A DNA stretch of 64,000 bases from a virus. The notes beneath the pieces were generated by a model. That model was not told the origin of the DNA, ran no database searches, and saw only the letters and a list, made by a program, of their open reading frames with translations. Positions 1,350 through 62,245 of this stretch are shown here, piece after piece (position 1 is the first letter of the stretch; each line of letters opens with the position of its first letter). Both the position numbers and the translations under genes were made by a program. The stretch lies in the IMG/VR virus record IMGVR_UViG_3300011113_000287, positions 28,156 through 92,155 of that record; one strand, given 5' to 3'.

Positions 1350-1350
1350 G

Positions 1351-1596: not shown

Positions 1597-1617
1597 GTCA
1601 TTACCTCCAAACGACAA

Positions 1618-1646
1618 CTTATCAAATCACTTACTATCGGTGTCAA
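1618..1646 (-). promoter_or_regulatory. Promoter with TTGACA-N2-GATAGTA element, copy 1
   Basis: On the minus strand a consensus -35 TTGACA (1646-1641) is followed by a 17-base spacer and -10 GATAAG (1623-1618). The spacer begins CCGATAGTA, an element shared with three other promoters at 4.0, 5.7 and 7.9 kb. The site overlaps the 3' end of the upstream gene and would start transcription about 15 bases before the gene that begins at 1596. Confidence 0.7.
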
Positions 1647-2450: not shown

Positions 2451-2451
2451 G

Positions 2452-3005: not shown

Positions 3006-3313
3006 TTGCTTCCTTTCTTTCCATCTTTGCCACGCTTGCTATCTCCACCAGCGTTGATGGTGATACTAGGTGCGTAGTTGATACTTTGGTCAATGTTGAT
3101 AATAGTATTCTGAGTGTTCCTCAATGCCACGTCGGACGTGAGAACGGACACTCTGCCCGTCTTTGTGTCCTCAACGATGAACACCGTTGCTCCATCTCCA
3201 TGTTTCACAGCGTCCTCCAAACTTGCGAGTGCCATTGACACAACTTCTGTTTCGTCCTCAGCGTCGTCGTACGACATAGACCACGTGACTACCCAACGTC
3301 CAACGTCAGCCAT
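3002..3313 (-). CDS. Hypothetical small protein, 103 aa
   Basis: The first 60 residues read like a small beta-alpha-beta domain (GRWVVTWSMSYDD, MALASLEDAVKHGDGATVFIVED). The C terminus is a basic Gly/Lys tail (GGDSKRGKDGKKGSK) that could bind nucleic acid. The start codon lies inside the final codons of the upstream gene with no independent Shine-Dalgarno, so initiation is probably coupled. No family was recognised. Confidence 0.75.
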   Translation of the reverse strand: MADVGRWVVTWSMSYDDAEDETEVVSMALASLEDAVKHGDGATVFIVEDTKTGRVSVLTSDVALRNTQNTIINIDQSINYAPSITINAGGDSKRGKDGKKGSK

Positions 3314-3530
3314 AAATGACAGGCTCGCAGTCGTCGTTCAGTACGAAGTTGATGCCCAACTCCCGACAATGTTTGCGGAGAAAGGGAACTTCGTCGGAGA
3401 TAGAGGCGAGTTGTGATGCCAACATGTTCCATTCCTCGTCATTCTCAACGTCAGGCAACCGTCCTGCGAGCGTGTGAAACCAGCCAACCGTGTCCCAATG
3501 GTATTTGCGGTGCTCTGCGTACTTGCTCAC
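3306..3530 (-). CDS. Hypothetical small protein, 74 aa
   Basis: Starts with GTG at 3530, overlapping the upstream stop (GTGA) and preceded by GGAGGACAGGGC. The protein is rich in His and Trp at the N terminus and predicted helical in the middle (EEWNMLASQLASISDEV). No recognised domain; the function is unknown. Confidence 0.75.
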   Translation of the reverse strand: MSKYAEHRKYHWDTVGWFHTLAGRLPDVENDEEWNMLASQLASISDEVPFLRKHCRELGINFVLNDDCEPVIYG

Positions 3531-3970
3531 GCCCTGTCCTCCGACACGTCCTTGACGAACGTCTTGGCAAACACCATGCGGTATCCAAACGTGGTATTGA
3601 TGTTAAATGAAATCTCGTAACCACGATACAGCATTTGGTTCGTAATACGGACTATCTTGTCGTGAGTGAACGCCCACTTGGTAGCGTACTTGTAATAGAC
3701 GCTTACCATTTCTTGCTTTTCAGCATCGTAACGCTTAGGGAACGTCACTTCGGACTGTTCTCCGTCGTCGGTAACGATTTCCGTCTTAACGAGGGTGACA
3801 CGAGGTGTAATACCGCCGATGGTGTCCATCGTCCAACCCCAACGGGTAAGCCTGTTTACTTGGTCAAACACTTTTGCCATTGAGCGTGCTTTGATGATGC
3901 GGTAGCGACGGTTGTGAACTCCGAGTTTGTCGTTGTCTACACGAACCTTGCTGGTGAATACGTTTGTCAT
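3527..3970 (-). CDS. Hypothetical basic protein, 147 aa
   Basis: The start at 3970 (MTNVFTSKVRVDN) is backed by AGGAG eight bases upstream and lies about 27 bases after the predicted transcription start of promoter copy 2. Upstream in-frame codons would run through that promoter and are rejected. The protein is basic (KLGVHNRRYRIIKAR) and otherwise mixed alpha/beta. No family was recognised. It is the first gene of its own transcription unit and overlaps the next gene as GTGA. Confidence 0.8.
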   Translation of the reverse strand: MTNVFTSKVRVDNDKLGVHNRRYRIIKARSMAKVFDQVNRLTRWGWTMDTIGGITPRVTLVKTEIVTDDGEQSEVTFPKRYDAEKQEMVSVYYKYATKWAFTHDKIVRITNQMLYRGYEISFNINTTFGYRMVFAKTFVKDVSEDRA

Positions 3971-4360: not shown

Positions 4361-4695
4361 GCTTCCTTCCTCATTTCTTTTGATTTGCGTACAACCATTT
4401 TGTGTTGCTCATGGTAGAACTTCATACGACGTTTACGATTACGGTTCGGCTTACCACGAGGTTGGAAATCAACTCCTCCCCACACCCCGTAGAACTCGTC
4501 CTTAGCCAATGCGAAGTTAAAGCACTCACGCACTACTTCGCACTTAGCACAAATGCTTTGCGTATGCTTTAATTTACTTTTGTAAGTACCTACTTCGTCC
4601 TTCTCGCAGTCAAGAAAGAACAGGTTGGAGGGAAGCCCCCTACAACCTGCCCTTTCGTACCACGACAGGTCTGGTGTCGTGGCGTTGTCCGTCAC
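4357..4695 (-). CDS. whiB: WhiB-family iron-sulfur transcription factor (first copy)
   Basis: WhiB proteins carry a redox-sensitive 4Fe-4S cluster and act with the housekeeping sigma factor to control promoters. The four cluster cysteines are visible (C18, C49, C52, C58) with the spacing CxxC-x5-C, followed by the diagnostic turn GVWGG at 70-74 and a basic tail (KPNRNRKRRMKF) for DNA contact. The 112-residue length is normal. The family is confined to Actinobacteria and their phages, which is the best host clue here. It overlaps the DUF932 gene upstream and a small gene downstream, and probably regulates host or phage early promoters; that role is inferred. Confidence 0.93.
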   Translation of the reverse strand: MTDNATTPDLSWYERAGCRGLPSNLFFLDCEKDEVGTYKSKLKHTQSICAKCEVVRECFNFALAKDEFYGVWGGVDFQPRGKPNRNRKRRMKFYHEQHKMVVRKSKEMRKEA

Positions 4696-5699
4696 ACCAA
4701 CACCAAGTCGTTGATGACCTTCATCACCTGCTCGTCCTGATTAAAGACCTTCCCCGTGAGAGCGTTCATCATGTTGCGCTCAACACGGTTATCGTCTTTA
4801 CCGACGACGTGCTGGTTAAAGGTGTTAAAGGCGTGGATAACTCCGAGTGCCGTGCCCGTGAACGGTGCGACACGTGGGTCATTGACGTACATGTCCTTGA
4901 TGCGCTCCTGTTTGTTCTCAATGCGAGAGACAGCCTGCTTTGGGGCGTTCTCGTCTGAGTTAATCGGCATCAACTTGTTCACGATGGCTTCCCACTCACG
5001 GTCAGACACCTTGATGCTGGCATACTTGTTCACTTCGGCAACGATGTCCTCCGTCATGCGGTGGACGAAACCGAGTGCGTCACGCACATTCTGTAAGCGG
5101 AAGTTGCTGTTCTTGCTGTGACGAGCACGGAACGTTTCGGTCTTTTCGCTAATCGCACGAGCCAGCAAGTTGTCACACTCAACACGAGTGGCAACCTGTT
5201 TGTACGTGGTGCTAATAGACCCGTTGTGGCTCGTGGTAGCCAAGAGCATCGGACGAACGGAGAAGCCGTCAAGCACCTTGATGGTTTCGGGCATCTCAAC
5301 GCTGACGAAACTCACCGCACCGTTTTTCAGGATACCTGCGCTACCAATGTTAAGGTCATCGTCCAAGAGATGCGACACGCTCTCAATGAGCCATGACTTG
5401 TATTGGTGAATGGCATAGGTGTCCTTAAACATGCCCAGCACATCACCGTTGTCGCTACGGACAATGGCTTTGCGGTCAGTCTCCATGCGGTACGTGTCGT
5501 TCCACTTGATGTAGACGGGTGCTTCCTGAGCCTCCCACGAATACAGGCGACGGAGAACGTCCTCAACGGGGATAGCACCCTCGTAGTGATTTGGCTCGTC
5601 GCTCTGACTGTCCATGCGGTAGTGCCACGCCGTGCCACGCTGTTTCGTGTGCCCGATGAGGCAATACTTGTTCAGCCACTCGTATGTTTCCTTACTCAT
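4692..5699 (-). CDS. DUF932 phage/plasmid-like protein
   Basis: Resembles the DUF932 family (TIGR03299 type), proteins of about 300-350 residues common in phages and plasmids with no settled biochemical function. Supporting stretches include the N-terminal MSKETYEWLNKYCLIG, the central VRPMLLATTSHNGSISTTYK and the VECDNLLARAISE segment with the family's Cys-Asn. The length of 335 residues fits. The start has a strong AGGAGGT and lies about 33 bases downstream of the predicted start site of promoter copy 3, making it the first gene of a unit that includes WhiB. Confidence 0.75.
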   Translation of the reverse strand: MSKETYEWLNKYCLIGHTKQRGTAWHYRMDSQSDEPNHYEGAIPVEDVLRRLYSWEAQEAPVYIKWNDTYRMETDRKAIVRSDNGDVLGMFKDTYAIHQYKSWLIESVSHLLDDDLNIGSAGILKNGAVSFVSVEMPETIKVLDGFSVRPMLLATTSHNGSISTTYKQVATRVECDNLLARAISEKTETFRARHSKNSNFRLQNVRDALGFVHRMTEDIVAEVNKYASIKVSDREWEAIVNKLMPINSDENAPKQAVSRIENKQERIKDMYVNDPRVAPFTGTALGVIHAFNTFNQHVVGKDDNRVERNMMNALTGKVFNQDEQVMKVINDLVLV

Positions 5700-10306: not shown

Positions 10307-10662
10307 CAGTCATTTGCGTTTCGGAGAGTGCCCTCACGATAAAGTTTTACCACCTTTTGCGACGTCTCTTCTACAAAAATTACCAAGTCACGCATTTTCT
10401 GAGTTTGTACTTCTAATTCTGCTTCTGCTTTCTTTACTGTTTCTTCCAGTGTCCTGATGTAGTTGAACAATGCTTCCCATCCGTCATAGCGAAGTTCAGT
10501 CAAAGACAAATTTGTATGCTTTGAAATGTTATCCAAATTAACGGAATCGTTCATCAACAACGGAGCAATACCACTGAGTGCTTTGCTCATACGTTCTACT
10601 TCTGATAGCAACACGCTTTTGGCAACGGAAGGGCGACCAAGACGGTCAAACAAGTGTTTCAT
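10306..10662 (-). CDS. Hypothetical coiled-coil protein, 118 aa
   Basis: No family was recognised. The region from about residue 65 onward (YIRTLEETVKKAEAELEVQT) reads as a coiled coil, so it is probably oligomeric. The N-terminal half contains LLSEVERMSKAL and further helices. It overlaps the genes on both sides, including the DUF6378-like gene, with which it is translationally coupled. Confidence 0.75.
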   Translation of the reverse strand: MKHLFDRLGRPSVAKSVLLSEVERMSKALSGIAPLLMNDSVNLDNISKHTNLSLTELRYDGWEALFNYIRTLEETVKKAEAELEVQTQKMRDLVIFVEETSQKVVKLYREGTLRNAND

Positions 10663-10993
10663 TATCGTCTGACTCGTCTATTGACACGACGGGAAAGTCA
10701 CGTGTTACACAGTCCCAGCCGCAACCAATGTAGCCAGCAATATCTACCCAATGGTCACGCTTGTCTGGAGTCCAAGACAAACGACTTACTTTTAACAACG
10801 CCATCATTACAGCAACGTCGTGCGGTTCAATGATGAATCCTTTTTTGCGCTCGGTAATGCGAGTCAAATACGACTGCCACAAATCAGCCGTCAATCCAAA
10901 ATCGTCATGTGGGTCTCCGTAATCTTCGTTACGGTCTCCGACAATCAGGCTTGCTGCATCAAGTAGTACTTGTTTGCGTTCGTTGGATGCCAT
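10646..10993 (-). CDS. DUF6378-like phage protein
   Basis: Matches the pattern of a phage family I recall as DUF6378: GDRNEDYGDPHDDFGLTADL near the N terminus, PHDVAVMMALLKVSRL in the middle, and HWVDIAGYIGCGWDC at the end. The conserved acidic and His residues recall the MazG/all-alpha NTP pyrophosphatases, so a role in nucleotide pools is plausible but inferred. The start follows GGGAG. It overlaps the adjacent nucleotidase-like gene by 49 bases, an unusually large overlap that suggests joint evolution. Confidence 0.7.
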   Translation of the reverse strand: MASNERKQVLLDAASLIVGDRNEDYGDPHDDFGLTADLWQSYLTRITERKKGFIIEPHDVAVMMALLKVSRLSWTPDKRDHWVDIAGYIGCGWDCVTRDFPVVSIDESDDNETLV

Positions 10994-11710: not shown

Positions 11711-13143
11711 TGCTCCTCTTCAATGTCTATCACTTCCTGATAAAACGAGTCCGTTGCCGCTGGTCCTAGTCCACCATGTGGTAGGGCATTGGCTTGGTCG
11801 GCGGCTCGCTGTCCGAACAGTCTAGACAACACGCCGCTTGAACCACGGGCTTCAACCTCAAAGCGTACAAGGTCACGGGTGTCGTTGATGCTCTTGAATT
11901 TCTCAATCATTTCAAAAGCCCTGTCCATTTCAGATGACAAAGAGGAATCAAGTCCTTGTCCCTCCATCTCTTCGGCAAAGCGGGCAAACATAACACGGCT
12001 CACTTGCATCTCAATCATGGCTCTAAGGGCTGCCTGTAGTTGGTCTCTAGTTCGTATCTCCACAGGCAGTTTAAACGCACATTCTGTATGTTCCTTAAAT
12101 GCGGGACATTTTGAGGCCAGATAACAATTATCGCACTGCCGTAAAAGTGCTCCCGTGTAGCGAATTATGTTGGTTTGTTCAGGTGCAATTTCAATAGATT
12201 CCCCATGTTCATCAATGGTTTGAGAACCCATTGAGGTAATGGTTTCCACCCCCATGACGGGTAATAATAAACGCTCATTTTCGTTCCGCTTTTCGGGAGG
12301 GGGGATAACAATACCTGTACCCCTGTTTTCCACATTTGCTAAACTACCACCATGGGGGGGTGTAATAATTATGTCACCACTTTCAGTGTCGTCGGAGTCG
12401 CCTTGATTGCTTGATGTCATGGTGTCATAGCCCCCAAAAATGTGTTCTTCGTAACGTTTCCACGATGTGATTGCCAACTTGCTGACCGCATCAACCTCGT
12501 CAGCCATGACGCTTTCAAACGGAATACCCAAGCGCTCAATGTCCGACCTATGCCGTTTACGGGCAGAGTCTTTTTGTTGGGCGGGGTAACGTCGTAACCC
12601 ATGTCCCGTCCAGACCTGCGTCTCTCCGTAACGCACAGCGCTTGTCCAGGAGTTGACCAATACGGCATCCCATTTGTAGTTTTCAATGTTGTCTGGTTTT
12701 GAGGTCAACCCGACCATTTCGGCGTTCCACCGCATGGCAATGGCATTTAGCCTATTGTGATGGTGTTTAGTCAATGCCTTGTCACTGATGGCTACTCTGC
12801 CGTGCCTTTGGCAAATCCAATTAAGACGTTCAAGGTCGTCGGCGTCGTTCCAAATTGGTACGTACTTTTCGCCCAACCATGTTCCGTCGTAATCTGGGCG
12901 ACCAATGACCAGAGTTAAATCATCAACATAAGACCGTAAAAAAGCATCGTAACGAGACACGTCTTCGTCTGCCTCTGACGTGTAAATCAATAACTCACTA
13001 TTTTCGTATTTCGTGCGTAGGTCTAATTGTTTCTTTTTTGGAATAGCCAAATGGGTCAAATTAAGACCAATACGACGTACTTCGGCTGATAACAGCATTG
13101 AGGCGTACATGCCTTTTTCTGCTCCGCCAAAGTAAATCTTCAC
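11707..13143 (-). CDS. Large conserved-looking protein, unknown function (weak transglycosylase-like resemblance)
   Basis: 478 residues from the GTG at 13143, which overlaps the preceding stop as GTGA. The N-terminal 250 residues (KIYFGGAEKGMYASMLLSAE; RYGETQVWTGHGLRRYP; ITSWKRYEEHIFGG) look like a structured domain. From memory they recall the TIM-barrel tRNA/DNA guanine transglycosylase-like (DpdA-type) proteins of phages, but I cannot confirm this and no preQ0 pathway genes are visible. A disordered Gly/Pro/Glu-rich linker follows, then a cysteine cluster (QCDNCYLASKC; C337, C340, C346, C355) likely to bind a metal or Fe-S cluster, and a helical C terminus. Confidence 0.7.
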   Translation of the reverse strand: MKIYFGGAEKGMYASMLLSAEVRRIGLNLTHLAIPKKKQLDLRTKYENSELLIYTSEADEDVSRYDAFLRSYVDDLTLVIGRPDYDGTWLGEKYVPIWNDADDLERLNWICQRHGRVAISDKALTKHHHNRLNAIAMRWNAEMVGLTSKPDNIENYKWDAVLVNSWTSAVRYGETQVWTGHGLRRYPAQQKDSARKRHRSDIERLGIPFESVMADEVDAVSKLAITSWKRYEEHIFGGYDTMTSSNQGDSDDTESGDIIITPPHGGSLANVENRGTGIVIPPPEKRNENERLLLPVMGVETITSMGSQTIDEHGESIEIAPEQTNIIRYTGALLRQCDNCYLASKCPAFKEHTECAFKLPVEIRTRDQLQAALRAMIEMQVSRVMFARFAEEMEGQGLDSSLSSEMDRAFEMIEKFKSINDTRDLVRFEVEARGSSGVLSRLFGQRAADQANALPHGGLGPAATDSFYQEVIDIEEEQ

Positions 13144-43751: not shown

Positions 43752-45670
43752 TGTATGTTCCTGGGACCCGCTCCAGTTCCTTTACGAACAGTCAAAGCAC
43801 CAATTGTTTTCAACTGGTTTGATGCACTGTTTGAGATAAAGGGAGTGTTGAAGTTGTAAGGAATAGCCTGTTCTTTTAATTGAACAGTTCCTTTGCTTTC
43901 TTGCACTTGTTTTGAAATTTCCCATTTAAAGAGTAATTGACAATTGTCAGTGTGGTTAATTGCTTCTTTATCACCAACGTCAGCAGGATTAAGCCAAAAC
44001 ACACGCATGTATTGAGTCATTGTGGAAGGAGAAGATGGTGCTGCAATACCGTACCACTGACGAAGTATGCTAATAGAATGACTGTCGTCCCCAACCTTTT
44101 CCCACGAGTACCACGCTGTTGAATTACCACCACCACCGCCAGGAGTTGTTCGGCTAAGTGCTTTTATATTAATGGTCTTAGTTAACTGCGGAGTCGTTGA
44201 TGTTGTTTTTACAACAGGGTTTCCGCTGGCTTCTACGGATACTCCTAAATCAGCAAGATTGTTTGGCATCTCTTTAGTAGTCATTCGGGACGTAACCGAA
44301 CCTTCTTTATAAGGGTTCATGACGTCAATCACCACAAGAATTGGTGTCCAACCAACTAAGTTATTTGGTAAATTGTTAACGGTTTGACCATTTGTAAACA
44401 CTTCATAAATTTGTTTAGCCTTACTACCAGCCGTTGTTATTTTACCGTCAGAAAATGCGTTAAACCACTGTGGCAACGTCATAAACGAGGAACTATTTCC
44501 CGAATAGTATTGACCAATGGACGTGCCACGCCATATTTTCATTCCATCACTATTTTGGTTAGGAAGGTCAAGGTTGTAGTCGTCTTCTGAAAGAACTCCC
44601 TCAGTGGACGAGTTGATAACATATTGAAACTTTTGCAACATGTTTGCAACTACCTGCTCGGCGTTTTTCGTGTCTTTTTCTTCTTGTTCATCCTTGGTAA
44701 GTTCAGACTCATACCAGGCTTCTAAATTGTCCGTAACAAACGCCGACTTCTTTGCAAACCCAAAATACAAAGCAGACAGATTGCAGTTAATTTGACAAAT
44801 AGTAGGAATCATTTGACGGTTAAATTTTTGAAAGGCTACTGCCGAACCAGTCACAAAGCCTTCAACCATGAACAAATCACCAAAAACAATACGCACAGGA
44901 AGGGGGTTTAAAAATGCAGAGTTTCCAATGTTTTTATTTAAATTTTGACCATACGTCTCTGCGTCAAATGTTGTCGCTGTTTCATCTTCCTCGTCAGGGT
45001 TTAGTTCTGCGGATTTTTCAGTAAATCGCAGTAGCGTGTTAACAAGTTCTTCACTAATTCCCTGACCGATTATTTTGTCAAAAATTGAAAGGTCGTGCAT
45101 TACACCAACCATGCTTGGGTCATTCAGTAATTCAAGAGCATTTTCATTGTTTTCTGAAAAGTTAAAAGCGGCATCACGTGCCCTGTCCCCACGCATTGCC
45201 ACCTCGTGTTCACGGTTAAATGTAATGGTGAAATTAAATTGTGCGGTTCCAGGAACTGGCTGAGTAAGATTTGTGACACTTTGAAGCAACGGATTTACTG
45301 CACCAGGGGACTGGCTTACGTCACGCTGAATATATTCAGGGTTAAATTGAAAATTTAAACGGATTCCAGTTCTCTCAGTGCCATCTACTTTCCCAGTTCC
45401 AATAGACTGGTACAAAATGCTTCTCATAAATCCACGAACCAGTGGCTTTGTGCGACCACTAATATCGGTATAAGTTGGTCCAGGCCACATAAAGTTGGCA
45501 TTTTCTAAAACGTTTTCACGCTCTCCTAATTTTCCATACGATACAAAATCCTGGTTACGAGCCTGCTGATAGGTCCACGTGGGCCTAATAAATGAACCAG
45601 ACAGGTTTGTGGGGTTGTTTCCACGTGGGTTATAAATTGGAAATTCGTCGTTATCACGATTTCTAACCAT
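43748..45670 (-). CDS. Tail/baseplate structural protein, 640 aa
   Basis: A large virion protein between the tape measure and the LysM-like gene. It has beta-rich and Asn/Gly-rich segments (GIRLNFQFNPEYIQRDVSQS; AQFNFTITFNREHEVAMRGD), an acidic linker (ELNPDEEDETATTFDAETYG) and a Gly-rich loop (RTTPGGGGGNSTAWYSW). No family is certain, but position and size suggest a baseplate or tail-tip component. The start overlaps the tape measure stop by one base. Confidence 0.75.
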   Translation of the reverse strand: MVRNRDNDEFPIYNPRGNNPTNLSGSFIRPTWTYQQARNQDFVSYGKLGERENVLENANFMWPGPTYTDISGRTKPLVRGFMRSILYQSIGTGKVDGTERTGIRLNFQFNPEYIQRDVSQSPGAVNPLLQSVTNLTQPVPGTAQFNFTITFNREHEVAMRGDRARDAAFNFSENNENALELLNDPSMVGVMHDLSIFDKIIGQGISEELVNTLLRFTEKSAELNPDEEDETATTFDAETYGQNLNKNIGNSAFLNPLPVRIVFGDLFMVEGFVTGSAVAFQKFNRQMIPTICQINCNLSALYFGFAKKSAFVTDNLEAWYESELTKDEQEEKDTKNAEQVVANMLQKFQYVINSSTEGVLSEDDYNLDLPNQNSDGMKIWRGTSIGQYYSGNSSSFMTLPQWFNAFSDGKITTAGSKAKQIYEVFTNGQTVNNLPNNLVGWTPILVVIDVMNPYKEGSVTSRMTTKEMPNNLADLGVSVEASGNPVVKTTSTTPQLTKTINIKALSRTTPGGGGGNSTAWYSWEKVGDDSHSISILRQWYGIAAPSSPSTMTQYMRVFWLNPADVGDKEAINHTDNCQLLFKWEISKQVQESKGTVQLKEQAIPYNFNTPFISNSASNQLKTIGALTVRKGTGAGPRNIQ

Positions 45671-48468
45671 TACGAGTTCCTCACAGTCATCATTTGCATC
45701 TCACGTTCAATGAGTTTAGACACCTCTTTGGCAAGGCGAGCCGCATCAACAGGCGCAGACCCCGTTGAAGTTACATTTATAGTCGGATTGATATTGTAAG
45801 AATTGTTATTGGTTGTTGAGTTAGCAACTGCTTTTTGAGACGACATCACTTGTTGTTTAGGCATTGGCATATACCCAGTATCAAACGGGTCTCCAGTTAC
45901 AGGCAGCCCAACAGAAGTTGCTACTTCTTTTGCCCACTTTACTGTTGTGTCTGGAATACCACCAAGCGGATTACCACCGTGGCTCCAATGTTTAATACCT
46001 TTTCCGTCTCCGTACAACATACGTGCAGCACGCACGTTTACATTTGGGTCAAACAATTCTTCGTCGTTTGTAATTCGGTATTGTTTGCGACGACCAGGAC
46101 CCAAATCTCCCAACATGTTGATTTGGTACAATCCGTAAGAATCGTCATCACTGTCTCGTACATGCGCCCTAGGGTTTAAACGAGATTCACGCCAAGCAAT
46201 AGCAAGCATCTTCCAAACATCATTCTTTTGGAAACCTTTTTTCTCAAGCATCCTGGCAAGGTCTTGTGGGTTGACAGCGTTACCACTAAGGTCAACATTA
46301 GACTTGGTTTTGCTCGCAGTGCCTCGGTCTTTGTCCTTTTGACCAAACTTCTTTTTTGGATTGCCCAAATTAAGCCCACCAACGCCCTGTTCCTGAAACA
46401 CCGCCATAGATTCTGACATGGACAGTTGTTGTTTAATCTCTGCTCCCATGACCATGCCGACTCCAGATTGCCCTTCTGGACCAGTTTCCGTAATTACGCC
46501 AACGGTTTCTGGGGTGTATTTTGTTTCTGGGTCTTCAACGGTTCCGTACGTAGCGCCTTCTTCTTCGTAATGTCGTCGGCTTGCAGGAACGGCTTTTGGT
46601 TGCACGTGCCATGGTTCTCCGTGACGTGAGAACTCATCAAGACCGTATTTGGCTGCATTTGCCTGTAGGTATTGCCTATCAGCATCCGAAGCAAACACAA
46701 GGTCTGCCGCCAACCCAATCTCGTGATATGACAACCCTGGAGGAGCAGCCATTGCCACTCCTGGTTTTTTCTCCCAATAAGACCCATCCCAGTATGTGTT
46801 AGTTTCTTTGTCCGTGCGGTAATACCGTTCCAAAAACATTTTCTTCTGGGCTTCTGCGCTTCGGTAACCCTGTCCAATTGAGATACCAGGGCGGTCAGAC
46901 AACAAGCGTGAAAGAGGTTCACGAAGGACTGGCTTTAATTGAGAAAGTGCAGCAGTGTTTTGCGGTTTTGTGGTTGGGTTTTCTTTGGCAATGCTCCCAG
47001 GACTTGCGGCCCCACGCTCGGCGGCATCGCCAAAAAAACCGCCAACCGCAGAACCTATTCCATATCCAGCCATTGCGCCCATGGGACCACCGCCGCCAAT
47101 AAATCCAGCAATGCCGCCAAGAATGCCAAGCCCTGGTCGCAGCAAATCACCAAATCCACGAACATTGGTTTTTGCCCCAATTACACCAGATAGTCGGTCT
47201 TCAAACTCTTTCAAAACTTTGTTTACATTTTGAATGTTTTCTTCCATTTGTGCATAATTGTCAGCCTGACGTTTGTACATCTGCTCTTCACGGTCCATTC
47301 GTACACGGTCAGTTTCTTCAGCCTGGGTTGCATAGTTATCTTCAATACCCATAAGTTTCCTATGGCCTTTTTGCGACGGGTCATAGAAACCAGTTCCGCC
47401 TTTTTCACGGAAACTAATATTGGATTCGGCGTATTGCAACAACATATCCTGTGCGCCCTCGTCCAGTCCAGCCATTGCCATGCGTTGACGAAGCATTGAC
47501 CCACTTTGACGACCACCCTGAATAACTTCACGGTTGTTTAAGCCAAGACGTTGAATAAGGTCCTGATTGACTTGTTGAGCAGACTTTTGTTTACCGCCTA
47601 TACCATAAAGGCTGGTTCCAGTCATCATGAACATTTGGTTTACAGTGTCAGCCTGTCCCATACTCTCAATGTAGTTAGTGATGTCCCCAGCAGAATACGC
47701 ATAGCCAGACAACGCACGCATAGACTCAACAGAACTTGCTTGCATTCGTGCGCTAAGCCCCGTTCGGGATTGCATGGCAAGAAGTTCGTTGATTCCGCCA
47801 GCCCCTAATTTGTATTGACGCAAAGGGCCACGTAATTGCGTCATTACGTCCATCTGACTCATTCCGTACTGTTGCTGTAATTGGACACTGAGCCTGTCAG
47901 CAGGAAGTGCGTAAGCCTTATTTCGGTCTACACGGTTGTCAATTGTTGCTCCTACGGCTTGTATTGCTTGACCAGCCACTTGAACATAAGGGTTGTTACC
48001 AAACGCCTTTAATCCCCCAAGAATCTTCCCGCCACCGCCGCCACCAAGACCCATTCCAGATGCGATACCACCGCCCTTTCCAAGCGCCCCCAGGATGCGT
48101 TCAACGCTCTGCAACTGCATCTCACGCATTGCATTAATGTCAGCAGCAGCAGGCATGCCCTTAGACGTGTCCATGTAGCCAGCACCGCTACCCTTACCAG
48201 TAACCTTGCCCATGGCAGTTGCTGCTTTATTTAATTGGGCGGTAAGGTCTTTTGCCTCTTTGGTTAAAGAACTAAACTTATCTTTAATTTTTTTGACGTT
48301 GCCGTCAAGTTTGGTAAGTTCTTCGTTGAGACCCTTAAGCATGGTCAAATCAACGCTTAGGCGTGAGTTAACAACAGAGTTACCCATGGCGCTGGCAGCA
48401 GCACCTTCGGCGGGACTATCCCCGCCTAGACCGCCTCCTGCAAGATTAGGTTCGTTGTTTGCAACCAC
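45670..48468 (-). CDS. Tape measure protein with peptidase M15 and lytic transglycosylase domains
   Basis: 932 residues from a GTG at 48468 behind GGAGG. The N-terminal part is long and helical (LKGLNEELTKLDGNVKKIKD), with a Gly-rich hydrophobic segment around 460-490. An M15-type peptidase follows at about 525-627 (H582, D589, and H621 in EPWHVQ), then an SLT transglycosylase at about 750-830 (catalytic E761 in AWRESRLNP; YGLYQINMLGD). The Lys/Asn-rich C terminus is disordered. It sets tail length and locally cuts the cell wall during DNA entry. Two muralytic domains in one tape measure is notable. Confidence 0.9.
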   Translation of the reverse strand: MVANNEPNLAGGGLGGDSPAEGAAASAMGNSVVNSRLSVDLTMLKGLNEELTKLDGNVKKIKDKFSSLTKEAKDLTAQLNKAATAMGKVTGKGSGAGYMDTSKGMPAAADINAMREMQLQSVERILGALGKGGGIASGMGLGGGGGGKILGGLKAFGNNPYVQVAGQAIQAVGATIDNRVDRNKAYALPADRLSVQLQQQYGMSQMDVMTQLRGPLRQYKLGAGGINELLAMQSRTGLSARMQASSVESMRALSGYAYSAGDITNYIESMGQADTVNQMFMMTGTSLYGIGGKQKSAQQVNQDLIQRLGLNNREVIQGGRQSGSMLRQRMAMAGLDEGAQDMLLQYAESNISFREKGGTGFYDPSQKGHRKLMGIEDNYATQAEETDRVRMDREEQMYKRQADNYAQMEENIQNVNKVLKEFEDRLSGVIGAKTNVRGFGDLLRPGLGILGGIAGFIGGGGPMGAMAGYGIGSAVGGFFGDAAERGAASPGSIAKENPTTKPQNTAALSQLKPVLREPLSRLLSDRPGISIGQGYRSAEAQKKMFLERYYRTDKETNTYWDGSYWEKKPGVAMAAPPGLSYHEIGLAADLVFASDADRQYLQANAAKYGLDEFSRHGEPWHVQPKAVPASRRHYEEEGATYGTVEDPETKYTPETVGVITETGPEGQSGVGMVMGAEIKQQLSMSESMAVFQEQGVGGLNLGNPKKKFGQKDKDRGTASKTKSNVDLSGNAVNPQDLARMLEKKGFQKNDVWKMLAIAWRESRLNPRAHVRDSDDDSYGLYQINMLGDLGPGRRKQYRITNDEELFDPNVNVRAARMLYGDGKGIKHWSHGGNPLGGIPDTTVKWAKEVATSVGLPVTGDPFDTGYMPMPKQQVMSSQKAVANSTTNNNSYNINPTINVTSTGSAPVDAARLAKEVSKLIEREMQMMTVRNS

Positions 48469-55347: not shown

Positions 55348-56436
55348 TCAGGAAGCCCCGATTGCGCCACCCTTGGTGTTGATGAGCACACGGCTCTCGT
55401 GAGTGATGACTCCAAAGCCCCAGATGGCGTACCACGCCAAACCGTGCTCACGACCAAAGTCAATGACGCCACCGTCACGGAGTTCAACAGGAAGTGCAAT
55501 TGCCTGACCGAAAGCGTTGTCACCAATCATGATGGCACTGTACGAGTCGGCAGTTGGGTCCTGCACACCACCGCTGGACGGGTTCACGTCAACGTAGCCG
55601 TTTGGTCCCCTGAGAACCTGAGTGGTCTCAATGAACACGACGTCGTAGAGGCGACCAATTTCACCCAGCATGAAGTTGCCAGGAGCAGCGTATTTGGTGA
55701 CTTCAATGAACTCAGGCCAGTCACGGAGCGAGCGGCTCTGCGACGGGTGAACGAAGCACACGTAGGTGTCGCCAAGGCGAGGAATGTTCTGACCAGCCAA
55801 AATTTCAACTGCGTCCTTAATGGTCGCAGGCGAGAGGTAGCCAGGAGCATTTGCCGAACCAGCGGCGCTGTACTCGTACGGGGCGATAGAACCACGGGTG
55901 GAACCGTTGGTCAAACGACCAAACACCACGCTTGGCGGAACGGCTGCGCCACCACCAAAGGGGACGCCTGAAGCGTACAGCGTGTTGCGAGCCTGAATGT
56001 CCATGGACTGTGCCATGTGACGACCAAGGAGACGGGAAGCCGACGCCATGACGTCATCAAATGCCGCATTGAGCAGCAACTCGGTGACGGCAACTGCGTT
56101 GCCCTGTTCCTTGACCGTAATTTGAATCTGCGAAGCAGACAAGGCGTTCGGCTCCAAGCGCACACCTTCGGTCAACTCTGCGCCAACAGAAGCGTTGGTG
56201 GAGAGGTTGGTGTAACGCATGAAGTTAACCGTGAGACCAGGCATGACGCCCAATTCGGTCTTCTTAACGGCGAACTGCTCAAAGCGCAGAACGGGCATTG
56301 CCTGGAACAAGATTTCCTTGCTCCAGATTGTCTGGATTGCGGGCGACAGCGTGGAATCAGACGAGTAACCAGTCGTCGTAATTGACGCCAGGTTTGCACC
56401 CGTAATTGAACCACCTGCTGGTGCTGGAAGTGCCAT
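55348..56436 (-). CDS. Major capsid protein (N4gp56-family, HK97 fold)
   Basis: 362 residues. The N-terminal half fits the N4gp56 family: SPAIQTIWSKEILFQAMPVL, RFEQFAVKKTELGVMPGLTV, NFMRYTNLSTNASVGAELTE, GVRLEPN, then IQITVKEQGNAVAVTELLLN. The family is a HK97-fold capsid protein. It is followed by the strong hairpin at 55.3 kb, and a coiled-coil scaffold candidate lies directly upstream. No N-terminal delta domain is obvious, so scaffolding is probably provided by the separate protein. Confidence 0.9.
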   Translation of the reverse strand: MALPAPAGGSITGANLASITTTGYSSDSTLSPAIQTIWSKEILFQAMPVLRFEQFAVKKTELGVMPGLTVNFMRYTNLSTNASVGAELTEGVRLEPNALSASQIQITVKEQGNAVAVTELLLNAAFDDVMASASRLLGRHMAQSMDIQARNTLYASGVPFGGGAAVPPSVVFGRLTNGSTRGSIAPYEYSAAGSANAPGYLSPATIKDAVEILAGQNIPRLGDTYVCFVHPSQSRSLRDWPEFIEVTKYAAPGNFMLGEIGRLYDVVFIETTQVLRGPNGYVDVNPSSGGVQDPTADSYSAIMIGDNAFGQAIALPVELRDGGVIDFGREHGLAWYAIWGFGVITHESRVLINTKGGAIGAS

Positions 56437-56494: not shown

Positions 56495-57295
56495 TTAGAA
56501 ACGTCCCCGTGAAGAACGTGCGTTCAAGAGTCTCTCACGCATTTTCTGATACTGTTCCATTGACATGTTCCGAATGTCTTCGGCTGTCAACGTCTGCTGC
56601 TCCATCTGAGTTTCCATTGGCCCAACGGGTGGGGCTGTAACCCCCGCACCCTTCAAGCGACTTTGGGATTCCGCAGTTGCTCGCTGAACGTTTTCAAGAA
56701 TAGCAGAACTAACTTCCTTGTACCTGTTAATTTGTGATTCAATTTCTTCTTCGGTTGAACCACTAACCAAACCCAAAAGTTCGGGAATAATGTGTTCTTG
56801 CTCTTCCTGCATACGGCGACCAATGTAATTTTGTAACTCTTGATGGCGGCGTTCCTTTTCCAAAAGGGCTGCCTGTGCCTGACGGTCACGGTCAATTTCC
56901 TCAAGACGAGCCTTCCACTCATTCTCAACAGTGTTGAGTTTCTGATTGAACTCGGTTTCCTGACGGAGGAGGAGTTCCTTAGCCGACAACTCCTCAAACT
57001 CCTTTTCCTTGAGAGCCTTGGCTTCCGCCTTTGCACGCTTCTCGGCTTCTTTGATAGCCGCCTCACGCTCCTCAGCAAGGACCTTCAACTTCTCTTCCAA
57101 GGCTTTGACACGACCATCGGCGTCATCAACCTTCTTGTACAACTTGTCTTTTTCCTGCTTACGAATGTTCTCCACCTCATCTTCGGTGAAGATACGCCCC
57201 TTTGGAGCCTGACCAGTTACCTGGGCAGCCTCCTCTTTGAACGTTTCAGTCGCCTCCACTGGAATGACGACTTCATCCTGTGCTTGCTTTGCCAT
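56495..57295 (-). CDS. Scaffold-like coiled-coil protein, 266 aa
   Basis: Almost entirely charged and helical (VDDADGRVKALEEKLKVLAE; EREAAIKEAEKRAKAEAKAL), with a long coiled coil between residues about 50 and 200 and a Gln/Met-rich C-terminal tail that ends in Arg (SSRGRF). A protein of this composition between portal and capsid is a typical capsid scaffold. Phage scaffolds of similar kind are degraded in maturation; the candidate protease is the HslV-like protein at 59.4 kb. Confidence 0.82.
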   Translation of the reverse strand: MAKQAQDEVVIPVEATETFKEEAAQVTGQAPKGRIFTEDEVENIRKQEKDKLYKKVDDADGRVKALEEKLKVLAEEREAAIKEAEKRAKAEAKALKEKEFEELSAKELLLRQETEFNQKLNTVENEWKARLEEIDRDRQAQAALLEKERRHQELQNYIGRRMQEEQEHIIPELLGLVSGSTEEEIESQINRYKEVSSAILENVQRATAESQSRLKGAGVTAPPVGPMETQMEQQTLTAEDIRNMSMEQYQKMRERLLNARSSRGRF

Positions 57296-57345: not shown

Positions 57346-59028
57346 TTATTCTTCACTAGGACTACGACGCTGGGCGAACCTAGCACCGTAAGCCTTACTT
57401 ACCAATTGATTCATCAAATCTGATTCTACAGGGCCGACAGCCGTTCCAGGCATGCCTGCTCCAGAATCTCCCGTAGACGACACGTCAGAACCACCTGCCG
57501 AAGTCGCTGCGGGACCCTCACCTCCTGGAACCATGCCCGTTGCGAGCATGACCGCCATTTGGATTTGAGAATTGAGCATGGTTAACGCACCTTGGTCAAT
57601 GGCGTCGTCCATAAGTTCTTCAAAGATTTCTTCCATCTTTTCGTTCGGGAACTCTTCGCCAAGGATACGCAAGGCTCCACGCTTGGATTCAAGCCCAAGA
57701 CCCATCTTGGCTTGAACCTCATTAAGTTTGATAAGAACATCCACGGGCAACGGTTCGGGCCAGTGAACGCTAGTTTTGTAGGTAATAGGGTCTGCTGGGT
57801 CCAACTGGGTCAAATGGTCACGCTCAGGACGGGCAGCCCTCATAGGGTTGTATACGAGCATTTCAGGACGGAATACAGCAGCAGTACGGATAACAAGTTC
57901 GTTGATGCTTTCAAGTCCCTTTGTGAAATGGGTCTTCTTCATTGAGTAACGGTTCATCAATGGCTGGTATTGGATGGCAAGGGCAACGCCGCTGGTGTTG
58001 GAAACGGGCTGGAATTGACCAAGGGCTGCTTCAGGGATGCCCGTAATTTCGTGCATCGTGCGCTTCAAGAATTGAATGTACTCCAAAGCACCAGACATCT
58101 CACCACGTGATTCAAGGTTGAATACATTGGCGTCTTTGGGGAGACCAGCCCACACCTTCTTCGGCCCACGCTCAAGTTGGCTTGCTTTTGCACCAGTAAT
58201 AATGGTGACGGGAGCAGCGTGATAGTTGATGATGTCGGACACCTCAACCATTTTTTCGTTCAACTCACGGTTGAGGGGAATGATATCCCAAATGTCTGAT
58301 TGACCCCAAGGCGAAGAAGAGATACTAACGTTTGGAATATGTACAACTGGCACGGAGCCAATAGCATTTGGATACTCGTCAATCAGTTCATCGTTGATGA
58401 ATTGCTGAACCATTTCGTCAGACAAGATTTCCGTGAACGTGTAAACCTGACGAGTGCCTTCGGCAGAGGTTCCCCAAAAACGATACTTAAGTTTAAACCT
58501 CAACAAACGGTCACGGTCATGCGGATGGTACTCAGGAAAGCAGTGCGCTGGGTTTAGAGGAATGACACGAATACGCCCCTCGTGCGGGATACCAACGGTG
58601 TCTACATAAGGCTCCTCGTAGGCAACCTTGACAAAGCAGTCTCCAGTGACGCCAGCCAATTGCCCCATTTCCCACAGCACTTTATGCTTGTTGTTGTGAC
58701 CGTTCCAAACGTCGTCTAGCAAGTGGGGAATAATTGCAGTGTTTTGTTCTGGGCATTTGAATTGAACACCTTTACCAAAACAAAAGTTGGTAATGTAATC
58801 CGCCATTGTGCGAACGTAGTTAAGGTAAAACGCCGATTCTCCCATTTCACGGCGATATGACCAATGGTGTCCCAAATACCACGCCCATGCCGACGAGTAG
58901 CGGTTCAGGCGAGGACCATGAACCTCAAACTCTTCATCGGCAAGTTCCACCAACCCCAACGGGCTGATGGCTACCGTCAGGTCACTGGCAGCAGCACGAT
59001 AAGATGGTGACCAAAAGTCAATTGCCAT
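57346..59028 (-). CDS. Portal protein (SPP1 gp6-like)
   Basis: 560 residues. The N-terminal region SAWAWYLGHHWSYRREMGES, GDCFVKVAYEEPY and NRELNEKMVEVSDIINYHAA, and FLKRTMHEITGIPEAALGQF in the middle are typical for phage portal proteins, which form the dodecameric ring at the head vertex and are needed for DNA packaging. The C-terminal tail is Gly/Ser-rich. Next downstream lie scaffold and capsid genes, which confirms the role. The terminase is not in the window. Confidence 0.92.
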   Translation of the reverse strand: MAIDFWSPSYRAAASDLTVAISPLGLVELADEEFEVHGPRLNRYSSAWAWYLGHHWSYRREMGESAFYLNYVRTMADYITNFCFGKGVQFKCPEQNTAIIPHLLDDVWNGHNNKHKVLWEMGQLAGVTGDCFVKVAYEEPYVDTVGIPHEGRIRVIPLNPAHCFPEYHPHDRDRLLRFKLKYRFWGTSAEGTRQVYTFTEILSDEMVQQFINDELIDEYPNAIGSVPVVHIPNVSISSSPWGQSDIWDIIPLNRELNEKMVEVSDIINYHAAPVTIITGAKASQLERGPKKVWAGLPKDANVFNLESRGEMSGALEYIQFLKRTMHEITGIPEAALGQFQPVSNTSGVALAIQYQPLMNRYSMKKTHFTKGLESINELVIRTAAVFRPEMLVYNPMRAARPERDHLTQLDPADPITYKTSVHWPEPLPVDVLIKLNEVQAKMGLGLESKRGALRILGEEFPNEKMEEIFEELMDDAIDQGALTMLNSQIQMAVMLATGMVPGGEGPAATSAGGSDVSSTGDSGAGMPGTAVGPVESDLMNQLVSKAYGARFAQRRSPSEE

Positions 59029-59035
59029 TTGTTAC

Positions 59036-59341
59036 TTACTTCTTCTTTTTCTTAGCAACGGCTTTCTTAGTAGCAGAAACCTGAGCGACAGCAGTCGGCT
59101 TAGCAACGGTTTCCTTAACAACAGCATCAATGACCTTCTTGTGCTTTACAAAGAAATTGGCAACAGACGGGTCGCCAACCCATGTGCTGGCAGCGTTAAG
59201 AAAGTACAAAAGCACGGGAAGAATGACGACGTTAAGGGCGGGGTCAACGTTCCACGTAGAAAGAAGGTACGATGCGACTCCGACTGCACCGCCCTTGGTT
59301 GCGACGTCGGCTAGTTCGGATACTTGCAGTTTCTTAGACAT
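59036..59341 (-). CDS. Small hydrophobic protein with lysine-rich tail, 101 aa
   Basis: One or two membrane helices (GAVGVASYLLSTWN; LNVVILPVLLYFLNAASTWV) followed by a helical segment and an Ala/Lys-rich tail ending KKAVAKKKKK. It lies between the HslV-like peptidase and the portal. Holin-like proteins have this size and topology, and the basic tail fits a cytoplasmic end, but the position in the head-gene cluster makes a structural role equally possible. The start has AGGAG. Confidence 0.7.
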   Translation of the reverse strand: MSKKLQVSELADVATKGGAVGVASYLLSTWNVDPALNVVILPVLLYFLNAASTWVGDPSVANFFVKHKKVIDAVVKETVAKPTAVAQVSATKKAVAKKKKK

Positions 59342-59368: not shown

Positions 59369-59998
59369 TTATACCGTTTTGCGTCGTTTTGTGCTCACCT
59401 TTTGCCCTTGCACAAACGCTTGGTACGGTGCGCCTGTTCCAGAGTCGTATTTGGAGGCGACAGCCAAGGCACGAAGAGCAATGCTTCTTGCCTGCTGTGA
59501 GTTAAGTTTTTTGTTACGAATTAAAACAGTCATGGCTCCCAAGGCATAGGCTGACCCACTTCCAAGTGAGTACAACCCAGACGCTTCAGAAGACCAAGAG
59601 TAATCAGACTCAATTACGTATATTTGAGAATTAATAGCAACGATAATAGAAGACCCTTGCTCCGCAATATGGCTTTTATCATCACGGTCTGGGACCGAAT
59701 AACCCTGTGTGTCAAAACATTCACGTAATGCTGGTATGAACTTAGAGGTAAAGAACTGGTCTAGTTTTTTACCACGTAGGTTTTGAGGGGGCTGTGGCGG
59801 TTGAAACACATGATGAAGAATGTTTATTGCCCGAACGTCTCCAGCGGCTCCAATTAAGTATTTACCATTTTGTGCCAATTTACCAGAACCTTCTCGCAAC
59901 GTTCCAATTTGGTATCCACCATCACTTTCGGTGCTGATACGTGAGTCAGCACAAATTACCGCAAACTCTTCTCCCTGAATACCAACAATGGTTGTCAT
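59369..59998 (-). CDS. HslV/proteasome beta-like Ntn-hydrolase peptidase
   Basis: 209 residues starting MTTIVGIQGEEFAVICADSR; after removal of Met, the exposed Thr (T2) equals the catalytic Thr1 of HslV. D18 matches the conserved Asp17, K40 in GSGKLAQ is the probable catalytic Lys, and the GLYSLGSGSAYALGAM segment is the conserved GSG region of proteasome beta subunits. No propeptide is needed. No HslU or other AAA+ partner is encoded nearby. It lies with portal and scaffold genes and no other prohead protease is visible, so it may be the head maturation protease; this is inference. Confidence 0.85.
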   Translation of the reverse strand: MTTIVGIQGEEFAVICADSRISTESDGGYQIGTLREGSGKLAQNGKYLIGAAGDVRAINILHHVFQPPQPPQNLRGKKLDQFFTSKFIPALRECFDTQGYSVPDRDDKSHIAEQGSSIIVAINSQIYVIESDYSWSSEASGLYSLGSGSAYALGAMTVLIRNKKLNSQQARSIALRALAVASKYDSGTGAPYQAFVQGQKVSTKRRKTV

Positions 59999-60000: not shown

Positions 60001-61152
60001 TTACTCGGCAACAAGTTCAACGCCTCGGTACATGCCCCAACCGTTGTAAATAGGCATCACCTCGTACGAGAATTTATGGTCTCCCTTGTCTTCGTACGTG
60101 ACTACTCCGACGCCTTGTTGCCAGTTTTCGTACCGAACAATCGGACGCCCGTCAAGGTCCACACCACCTTTTGTAGACGGTACAGCACCATCAATACGGG
60201 CAAGACAACCAGGGGAAGCAGCCATAATAGTGCGAGGCCCGTCAAAATCTTCCCTTGTTTTAAACGCTGTTTCAATCCTGTGGATGTGTCCATATATCAC
60301 GCTCGTCTTTTCGTTGTTCAAATAAACGTGAGCCGTTGAGCCAGAAGACTTCACACGGTCACCGTGAATGATTCTGAGTTTCTCATTAATCCAATAATCA
60401 GACGCAGGATAACCAGGGCGGTATTCCACTTTGTATTCATCCATACGGCACAAGTATGGGACAGTGAGAACGGGCCATGATTCTGGTGTATTTCCTTTGC
60501 GAAGACCGTAGGCCGCAGCCGCATTGGTAAGAAGATACTTAGGCATGCGTTCTTCGTGGTTACCAGCAAGCCATGCAATCTTTGCGTACGGTGCGGCATC
60601 ACGAAGTTCGGCGCACAGCAGCGCAGCCCTGTCAATGGCGGCTTGTGTAGTTTGTTGGTAGGCAGGAGTAGTTAGGTACTTGCCCATTTCAGGAAAGTCA
60701 AGGTTGTCACCAACACAAACAACCGTGTCTGGTTCCACCAACCGAATCAATTCAAGAACTATACGTATTGCACGTTCGTCGTGAGTTGGTTCCAATTTCC
60801 CGTCACGACCACGGTAGTAACCGATTTGTGCGTCTGGAACTACAACGCACTTTTTGAATTTTGTTTTTTTCAACGTGCGTGCTTTTTTAGGTGGTAGTTT
60901 TACCACAGGACCCTGTTGGATAACAGGCCACTTTGGACCACTATCCCACGTTGGTGCAAATTGAATTGCGGCGAGGTCGTGTACCTCTGCCTCACCCTCT
61001 TCGTTTTTTGTCAATGATTGGTAAATGGAAACACGGCTAACGTCACCAATGTCGGCAACATCAATGTTCTTTCGTTTCAAAAGTTCAAGGAGGTCTCCCA
61101 AAACCTTTTCACGTTTTTCTGGTCCGTTTAAGTCATCCTTCAAGTTGGTCAC
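60001..61152 (-). CDS. Calcineurin-like metallophosphoesterase
   Basis: 383 residues with all the metal-binding motifs in order: VVVPDAQIGYY (first Asp), VCVGDNLDFPEMGKYL (GDN), AWLAGNHEERMPKYL (GNHE), IIHGDRV (His) and VIYGHIHR (GHxH). The first 100 residues are a separate helical/basic region. Such enzymes hydrolyse phosphodiesters or phosphomonoesters and are frequent in phages near packaging genes. A role in DNA-end processing is possible, but the substrate is unknown. Confidence 0.85.
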   Translation of the reverse strand: MTNLKDDLNGPEKREKVLGDLLELLKRKNIDVADIGDVSRVSIYQSLTKNEEGEAEVHDLAAIQFAPTWDSGPKWPVIQQGPVVKLPPKKARTLKKTKFKKCVVVPDAQIGYYRGRDGKLEPTHDERAIRIVLELIRLVEPDTVVCVGDNLDFPEMGKYLTTPAYQQTTQAAIDRAALLCAELRDAAPYAKIAWLAGNHEERMPKYLLTNAAAAYGLRKGNTPESWPVLTVPYLCRMDEYKVEYRPGYPASDYWINEKLRIIHGDRVKSSGSTAHVYLNNEKTSVIYGHIHRIETAFKTREDFDGPRTIMAASPGCLARIDGAVPSTKGGVDLDGRPIVRYENWQQGVGVVTYEDKGDHKFSYEVMPIYNGWGMYRGVELVAE

Positions 61153-61417
61153 AAGAGCACTCCTTGTTTACGTGTCGTTGTACTGTACTTACGCTTATTT
61201 GGTAACCGTTCTTACGTAACACTTTAGCAAGCCACACACTGCTATGCGACCTGTTTTTACCGTTGAAACTTGATGAGCGAATAAGGTCAACGGCTTTTAC
61301 CAAAGCCTCACGCTCGTCTCCTTCCAATGATTCAATCAACCGACCTATTTTGCAAGGGTAGTTTTTTACTTGTTTTGATTGGTTTGTGAGGTCGTTTAGC
61401 AGCGACGACTTGTCCAT
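61133..61417 (-). CDS. HTH protein, possible small terminase subunit
   Basis: 94 residues from the ATG at 61417, with the GGAGCACAACATG leader. WLAKVLRKNGYQISVSTVQR followed by HVNKECSCDQ looks like a DNA-binding helix-turn-helix plus a Cys pair. Proteins with this layout occur next to terminase genes in other phages, so a small terminase subunit is a candidate, but this rests on weak resemblance. It overlaps the phosphoesterase by 20 bases. Confidence 0.58.
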   Translation of the reverse strand: MDKSSLLNDLTNQSKQVKNYPCKIGRLIESLEGDEREALVKAVDLIRSSSFNGKNRSHSSVWLAKVLRKNGYQISVSTVQRHVNKECSCDQLEG

Positions 61418-61441
61418 GTTGTGCTCCAAGTTGTTGACGAA

Positions 61442-62245
61442 TTACGCAGTGAGTGCATCCCACGTACGTTGATTGCAAACACCATTGGTTTGTAGGTTAG
61501 CAGACTTTTTGAAATAGTTGACGGCCTTCTGAGTAGCAAGGTCAAAATCACCGTTGACAGGGCAGGCAAACCCTTTTTTATTTAGAAGGTTTTGCAGTTC
61601 TTTTACCTTTTCTCCCTTGTCGCCCAACTTCAGTTTTAGACCTCCGTCGTCTTCTTTTTGCTGGACGATAGGTTCCGTTTTACCTTCTGGGGCTTTAATA
61701 CCGTTTTTATCCATGTAGGCTTTGACCGCAGCAGGAACATCGTCACCGTTTACATATCGCAGATGCCATGGTTCTTCTGGCACAACTTCCCAACTAAAAC
61801 CAAAAGTTTTAACGTTGTCAATCAACCACTTAAGACGCTTTGTCTCAGCAGCAGTATGAACGTCAACAGCCAAACCGCTATTATGCTGACTCGTACCAGG
61901 CGCAGCAAGGCTGGCAAGTTTTGGGTCTTTTTTATACCACTTGACACCTTCAAACGTCCTCGTTGCGTTACCGTTGGGTTCTTTGGTGTAACGCTGTTTG
62001 AACGCTGCAAGTTGGGAATCATACGTGCGGTAGGTATCGCCAGCCGAGACGGGCTTAAGTTCTACGCCGTCAGCCTTTGCCTTTTCAACCATGGCTGCCC
62101 ACGCTGCTGCGGCAAGCCAATGCAGTTTGCCACCACCAACGGCGGGACGGAGCAAGTGCTCAGGCAACCTACCAGGCTGCACGCCTTTCAAATCGGCAGG
62201 CATCTTTACTGGAACAACGTAGTCCCAATCAACTTTCTTGGACAT
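61442..62245 (-). CDS. Endolysin: VanY/M15-type carboxypeptidase with peptidoglycan-binding domain
   Basis: 267 residues. The M15B zinc-peptidase site is HNSGLAVDVH (H121, D128) with EEPWHLRY (H161); the region around 70-85 (AGDTYRTYDSQLAAF) is also typical. The C-terminal domain at about 205-265 (LKLGDKGEKVKELQNLLNKK; NGDFDLATQKAVNYFKKSAN) is a PG_binding_1 domain. It cuts the peptide cross-bridges of the host wall at lysis. It is surrounded by small membrane proteins. No signal peptide is present, so it needs a holin. Confidence 0.93.
   Translation of the reverse strand: MSKKVDWDYVVPVKMPADLKGVQPGRLPEHLLRPAVGGGKLHWLAAAAWAAMVEKAKADGVELKPVSAGDTYRTYDSQLAAFKQRYTKEPNGNATRTFEGVKWYKKDPKLASLAAPGTSQHNSGLAVDVHTAAETKRLKWLIDNVKTFGFSWEVVPEEPWHLRYVNGDDVPAAVKAYMDKNGIKAPEGKTEPIVQQKEDDGGLKLKLGDKGEKVKELQNLLNKKGFACPVNGDFDLATQKAVNYFKKSANLQTNGVCNQRTWDALTA

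Follow-up and report, generated by a model that had tools for sequence, protein, structure and literature searches.

A proteasome homolog encoded beside the head genes of an apparent actinophage is probably an accessory peptidase of the infected cell and not a head-maturation protease

INTRODUCTION

Fuchs et al. (2021) defined 22 new proteasome homologs, among them PPH and AAH in phages, and could report neither a function nor co-occurring AAA+ partners for these proteins (PMC8665760). AAH was known from many phages, but no Actinobacteria-specific phage carrying it was found (PMC8665760). PPH is short (ca. 140 residues) and is built without helix H2 (PMC8665760). In the cellular homolog BPH, the start methionine is removed and epoxomicin binds to Thr1; its pore loop is elongated and acidic, and no partner unfoldase has been found (PMC5777263). 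HslV, in contrast, has a short linker and a basic cluster (PMC5777263; PMC8665760). The Salmonella jumbo phage pSal-SNUABM-04 is reported to encode an HslV without HslU (PMC7823757).

Here, we describe a relative of these proteins that is encoded next to the head genes of an uncultivated virus. The DNA analysed (the window) is a 64-kb stretch forming the right-hand part of the 92,155-base IMG/VR record IMGVR_UViG_3300011113_000287. An original prediction, made from this stretch alone, held that the protein is an HslV/proteasome-like peptidase with a Thr-first active site and that it may be a head-maturation protease built on an Ntn-hydrolase fold, or may borrow an ATPase of the host. The family, the Thr-first site, and the absence of both a prohead protease (S78, S49, or S14) and an unfoldase have stood up to our analysis; the head-maturation role has not.

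RESULTS

The protease gene lies in the late region. The ORF was found exactly where it had been predicted, together with the portal, scaffold, and capsid genes (Table 1). In the direction of transcription, the order is endolysin, 98-aa ORF, metallophosphoesterase, protease, 101-aa protein, portal, scaffold-like protein, and N4-gp56-type capsid. Only 2 bp separate the metallophosphoesterase stop from the protease start, a spacing from which we infer that the protease gene is probably cotranscribed with the late genes. The terminase gene is at the far end of the record and in relatives lies ca. 4 to 7 kb upstream of the portal gene; this placement marks the protease neighborhood as late region, as does the endolysin-like gene, which puts the protease between lysis and head genes. 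Most late-module loci retain the metallophosphoesterase (PHROG_20266/221), whether or not they have the protease, and it also precedes the protease in phages whose neighborhoods are otherwise different. The 101-aa protein likewise occurs in some protease-less relatives (L181, L190, and L221). The nearest relatives of the head proteins belong to Streptomyces phages, every one of the 233 phage records that the metallophosphoesterase matches is that of an actinophage, and homologous loci carry WhiB. Judged by these resemblances, the virus and its hosts look actinobacterial.

Table 1. Coordinates of features in the window and in related records
Record	Feature	Position	Strand	Remarks
Window	HslV/BPH/AAH-like proteasome homolog	59369..59998	-	209 aa, ATG start; predicted group-I-like compact fold
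Window	Thr2 codon, predicted nucleophile (Thr1 after Met removal)	59993..59995	-	invariant in 27 homologs
Window	Asp18 codon	59945..59947	-	aligns with HslV/proteasome Asp17; invariant
Window	Lys40 codon	59879..59881	-	aligns with HslV/proteasome Lys33; invariant
Window	calcineurin-like metallophosphoesterase	60001..61152	-	383 aa, GTG start
Window	98-aa ORF upstream of metallophosphoesterase	61133..61429	-	weak phrog_1738 match; conserved in module
Window	endolysin-like protein, VanY + PG_binding_1	61442..62245	-	
Window	101-aa protein, hydrophobic segment and Lys-rich tail	59036..59341	-	between protease and portal genes
Window	portal protein, SPP1 type	57346..59028	-	
Window	scaffold-like coiled-coil protein	56495..57295	-	32% identity, colinear with annotated GiJojo scaffolding protein
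Window	major capsid protein, N4-gp56 family (TIGR04387)	55348..56436	-	colinear with GiJojo capsid (61%)
Window	tail-region protein, lysozyme/SLT-like and VanY-like domains	45670..48468	-	932 aa
L179	98-116-aa slot protein (example)	5108..5452		protease-less locus
L181	98-116-aa slot protein (example)	4419..4715		protease-less locus
L224	98-116-aa slot protein (example)	5116..5466		protease-less locus
L245	ClpB-D2-like AAA+	1171..2598	-	475 aa
L146	WhiB-type ORF downstream of protease	10646..10963		
L001	WhiB annotation	12715..12954		DSL-LC01
L236	cellular relative	3001..3546		annotated hypothetical protein
L237	cellular relative	3001..3543		annotated hypothetical protein
L238	cellular relative	2001..2564		annotated hypothetical protein
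L241	cellular relative			annotated hypothetical protein

The protein is a proteasome homolog with a conserved Thr-first site. The Pfam Proteasome model (PF00227) is matched above its gathering score (E value, 2.4e-7; 31 versus 22.4 bits), as it is by 25 of 27 family members; PHROG_1040, "peptidase HslV family," is matched at 9e-23, and the best sequence match among solved chains is BPH (1.7e-5). Matches to the NCBIfam models all fall far below cutoff, both for HslV (TIGR03692, 23.4 versus 157.75 bits; NF003964, 25.4 versus 137 bits) and for the 20S proteasome beta subunit (TIGR03690, 25.9 versus 191.9 bits; TIGR03634, 29.5 versus 224 bits), which places the protein in the superfamily but outside both HslV and the 20S beta subunits. 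HslV proper is ruled out by these curated cutoffs together with the lack of HslU in the 92-kb record, and PPH by the length of the protein and its predicted helix H2 (residues 76 to 97).

The ORF begins Met-Thr and has no propeptide. Across an alignment of 27 diverse viral and Streptomyces relatives, M1-T2, D18, S19, K40, G50, G53, G146, and G148 are invariant. Profile alignment pairs T2 with Thr1 and D18 with Asp17 of HslV, and a joint alignment with Escherichia coli HslV and BPH sets K40, named at first only as the probable lysine, on the catalytic Lys, so that the whole Thr1-Asp17-Lys33 triad has its counterpart. dN/dS values of 0.05 to 0.15 between close relatives indicate purifying selection, and the ORF is thus not a chance one.

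Modelling of the fold, proposed earlier as a check, gave a proteasome-subunit sandwich (AlphaFold; pLDDT, 85; pTM, 0.82). In Foldseek, this model matched more than 1,000 PDB entries below 0.001, headed by BPH 5ovs (1.1e-11; TM score, 0.69 by query and 0.77 by target), with HslV and 20S beta subunits ranking next; the best viral structure match was a phage protein named HslV. The segment corresponding to the H2-S7 pore loop has 22 residues and a net charge of -3 in the window protein and 19 to 23 residues and -1 to -5 in the phage family, compared with 22 residues and -5 in BPH. Taken together, the gene is predicted to encode a catalytically competent AAH/BPH-like (group I) proteasome homolog.

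Of the described systems, AAH and BPH come closest. Like AAH, the window protein is a compact group I proteasome-like protein without a propeptide, and the distribution of AAH is matched by its cellular relatives, which reside on Streptomyces chromosomes and plasmids and on plasmids of Rhizobium, Sinorhizobium, and Mesorhizobium. The window branch, however, shares only ca. 30% identity with these cellular proteins and stands as a separate phage group, apparently of actinophages. In our tree, the Streptomyces and rhizobial relatives, together with proteins of Psychrobacter phage D'Alembert and Moorella phage MTATph1, make up one group (support, 98/99) next to the window phage family. It is from the distribution of these relatives that we infer AAH membership at this level of identity. 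Several of the cellular relatives, from Rhizobium and Mesorhizobium plasmids and Streptomyces genomes, are annotated as hypothetical proteins (Table 1), and Streptomyces olivoreticuli has at least two of them besides its 20S proteasome genes. With BPH (PDB entries 5ovs, 5ovt, and 5ovu), the window protein shares the Thr1/Asp/Lys center, the long acidic H2-S7 pore loop, and the lack of a propeptide; the two are only ca. 22% identical, and the window protein differs in being phage borne. BPH (5ovs) falls outside the phage branch of the tree but itself sits on a very long branch (7.5). HslV (ClpQ) has the fold, the Thr-Asp-Lys center, and the GSG region in common with the window protein, which departs from it in its distance below the NCBIfam cutoffs, its longer acidic pore loop, and the absence of an encoded HslU. 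PPH is similar in being phage borne and proteasome-like. Other phage-borne relatives are annotated as "peptidase HslV family" or similar (PHROG_1040; DSL-LC01, MTATph1, and pSal-SNUABM-04, the last likened by description).

No S78, S49, or S14 prohead protease and no Clp/HslU-type unfoldase was detected. The S78/U35 (PF04586), S49 (PF01343), and S14 (PF00574) families are absent from the whole 92-kb record, in searches whose positive controls matched, which extends the same observation made earlier for the window. The statement covers these three families; controls for the T4-type S77 search themselves gave no match. A scan of the late-region ORFs against PHROGs also yielded no protease. On the strength of the three controlled searches and the PHROGs scan, we rejected the possibility that another part of the genome hides a prohead protease. 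Prohead proteases of all four families (S78/U35, S49, S14, and S77) are likewise encoded near portal and capsid genes, but they are unrelated to the protein described here.

The predicted lack of an HslU-like ATPase also held for the whole record, in which no Clp/HslU-type AAA_2 unfoldase was found while the positive controls matched. Four large carriers of the protease (records of 216, 202, 169, and 86 kb; L245 and L246 to L248) encode a single-ring ClpB-D2-like AAA+, 475 aa long in L245 (Table 1) and present as open frames of 304 to 476 aa in L246 to L248. These genes lie far from the protease gene, and the AAA+ is absent from the window phage and from its nearest relatives tested. Possibly, it serves the large carriers as a phage-encoded unfoldase partnering the protease.

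The same head module occurs without the gene. IMG/VR contigs that share the head module of the window have capsid proteins 76 to 84% identical to its own. Eighty IMG/VR loci, 77 of them new, carry a window-type capsid; of these 77, 29 have the protease, 19 have the region but lack the protease, and the remainder are too short for its presence to be judged. Several protease-less loci display the complete terminase-to-capsid interval. The five longest of the protease-less records checked (72 to 93 kb) were searched whole and contained no proteasome homolog, with positive controls matched in the same run, and no S78 protease, S78 being the one protease family searched with a working control in these records. 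Two isolates, the Streptomyces phages GiJojo and BRock, share the head module (portal, 51 to 52%; scaffold, 32% and colinear; capsid, 61% and colinear), and their whole genomes contain no proteasome homolog and no S78, S49, or S14 protease. Since IMG/VR records may be fragments, absence at the level of the whole genome rests on the longest contigs and these two isolates.

The head proteins themselves point the same way. In the window, the portal, scaffold, and capsid genes are contiguous, and no N-terminal prodomain is seen in the capsid protein, which is colinear with that of relatives lacking the protease. Our searches turned up no close relative of the capsid protein with a solved structure and nothing directly usable in the literature on the processing of N4-type capsids. 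Judged by presence and absence across loci and isolates, then, the protease is not needed to mature this head type. That close relatives build the same head without the gene suggests that its product is probably an optional enzyme of the infected cell and not a head-maturation protease.

In most protease-less loci, the slot between phosphoesterase and portal genes holds a protein of 98 to 116 aa with the consensus WLDAFDGPTGW or a variant of it (examples in Table 1), which is absent from all loci carrying the protease; a few protease-less loci add a protein of 208 to 216 aa. Four slot proteins, including two WLDAFDGPTGW-like ones, had no significant match in Pfam. A substitute protease in this slot was considered and rejected, its occupants being mostly small unrelated ORFs of the 98- to 116-aa and 101-aa types and the four tested being without a significant Pfam match.

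Orthologs occur in unrelated neighborhoods. Of 133 IMG/VR loci with the protease, 102 have the phosphoesterase upstream and the portal downstream, and 22 have no portal downstream despite room to see one. Orthologs that are 55 to 63% identical occupy nonhead contexts. In L153, the ortholog lies between DnaB-like helicase/primase and RusA resolvase genes; in the L150 type, it follows thymidylate synthase; in phages of 169 to 216 kb (L114 type), weak SSB- and DNA-polymerase-like genes are nearby; and in the L146 type, it is flanked by the phosphoesterase and a WhiB regulator. In Actinomycetia phage DSL-LC01, the ortholog (46% identical) lies in a group of small ORFs ca. 6 kb ahead of the terminase and adjoins WhiB. 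Next to the capsid gene of this phage are ORFs annotated "capsid maturation protease," one of them with an S78 domain, and two more phage records pair the protease gene with an S78-type domain. Unlike the window gene, those of DSL-LC01, D'Alembert, MTATph1 (a weaker relative), and Microbacterium phage Pumpernickel (a more distant one) stand outside the head cluster; the latter three are in nonhead regions.

Several phages with different head modules have a small ORF directly downstream of the protease. It is of WhiB type in L146 and is annotated as WhiB in DSL-LC01 (Table 1), and in L122, L128, L139, L142, L143, and L149 it belongs to cluster c46. The adjacency of protease and WhiB may hint at function.

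The head-linked copies do not form one clade. In a context tree of 50 rows, in which some internal branches are weakly supported, contexts being known before the clade was tested, copies linked to head genes interleave with others: L115 and L151 group with L146 (support, 100/96), and L119, L131, L133, and L135 fall beside copies in the thymidylate synthase context (87/68). The tree calls for at least five changes of state, and a single head-linked clade is rejected (p-AU, 3.1e-5). The slot therefore exchanged the gene repeatedly, or lost and regained it, alternatives of gain and loss between which the tree does not discriminate.

DISCUSSION

We conclude that this gene very probably encodes an accessory, catalytically competent proteasome homolog that the head does not require. 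With somewhat less assurance, we take it to be a compartmental AAH/BPH-like peptidase of actinophages that acts in the infected cell and not in head maturation. In the mechanism that we propose, removal of the initiator Met would expose Thr2 as the N-terminal nucleophile, with Asp18 and Lys40 completing the catalytic center. By analogy with BPH and HslV, we expect the subunits to form a closed double ring that encloses the active sites and, inside infected actinobacteria, cleaves peptides or unfolded proteins. The ring, its peptidase activity, its substrate, and the timing of its action are predictions. The gene would be an accessory one that has repeatedly been exchanged into the slot between metallophosphoesterase and portal. 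Given the tight linkage to these two genes in 102 of 133 loci, a slim chance is left for a late or assembly-related role in the closest lineage.

How such a ring would obtain its substrates is less certain. We tentatively favor, at somewhat less than even odds, a self-assembled ring that acts on unfolded proteins or specific peptides with no dedicated unfoldase, since no recognizable Clp/HslU-type unfoldase is encoded and the pore loop is long, acidic, and BPH-like. The main rival to this unfoldase-independent mode is a peptidase core that docks on an AAA+ protein of the host, such as the actinobacterial ARC/Mpa or ClpC/ClpX, and so diverts the protein turnover of the host. The same lack of a viral AAA_2 unfoldase would suit docking equally, as would the 20S proteasome subunits found in a Streptomyces genome with cellular relatives and the ClpB-D2-like AAA+ of the four large phages. 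Docking nevertheless seems unlikely to us, considering that the pore loop resembles that of BPH, for which no unfoldase is known (PMC5777263), and that no AAA+ partners were seen by Fuchs et al. to co-occur with homologs of this kind (PMC8665760).

We consider it quite improbable that the protein is a proteasome-fold enzyme other than a general peptidase (a specific peptidase, an amidase, or a connectase-like ligase), perhaps one that counters a host defense or regulator. Connectase proves that the fold can serve as a specific ligase (PMC8665760), and the recurrent neighbors (the metallophosphoesterase and, in other phages, WhiB regulators) are compatible with a specialized role; against this, the active site and the compact BPH/HslV-like form fit a classical peptidase, and the model shows no apparent insertion where connectase has its own (S3/S4). 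A prohead protease on an Ntn-hydrolase fold, packaged with the scaffold and cutting scaffold or capsid inside the prohead, would explain why most copies sit in a head cluster and why the genome has no S78, S49, or S14 protease, yet it is highly improbable in the face of 19 loci and two isolates with the same head module and no gene, contiguous and colinear head genes with a prodomain-free capsid, orthologs in nonhead contexts, a separate ORF annotated as capsid maturation protease in DSL-LC01, and the polyphyly of the head-linked copies.

Viral proteasome homologs as such were already known (Fuchs et al., 2021), although those borne by viruses had no known function and no actinophage with AAH had then been found; what is new here is the actinophage branch and a corrected functional reading. 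Adjacency to portal and capsid genes does not make a protein the prohead protease, and in this case a tempting misannotation was settled by comparison. The branch is abundant, with at least 534 matching IMG/VR stretches. Together with the intact, conserved active site and the movement of the gene among unrelated neighborhoods, this abundance suggests that the gene has a portable function under selection during infection of the cell, and the named carriers DSL-LC01 and, more distantly, Pumpernickel make that function testable. One speculative and, at present, doubtful possibility is that actinophages use a mobile viral compartmental protease to remove specific host regulators or defense proteins during infection, the larger phages perhaps with their own ClpB-D2-like ATPase and the window phage alone or with an ATPase of the host. 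If true, a proteasome-type machine would for the first time have a defined role in a bacterial virus.
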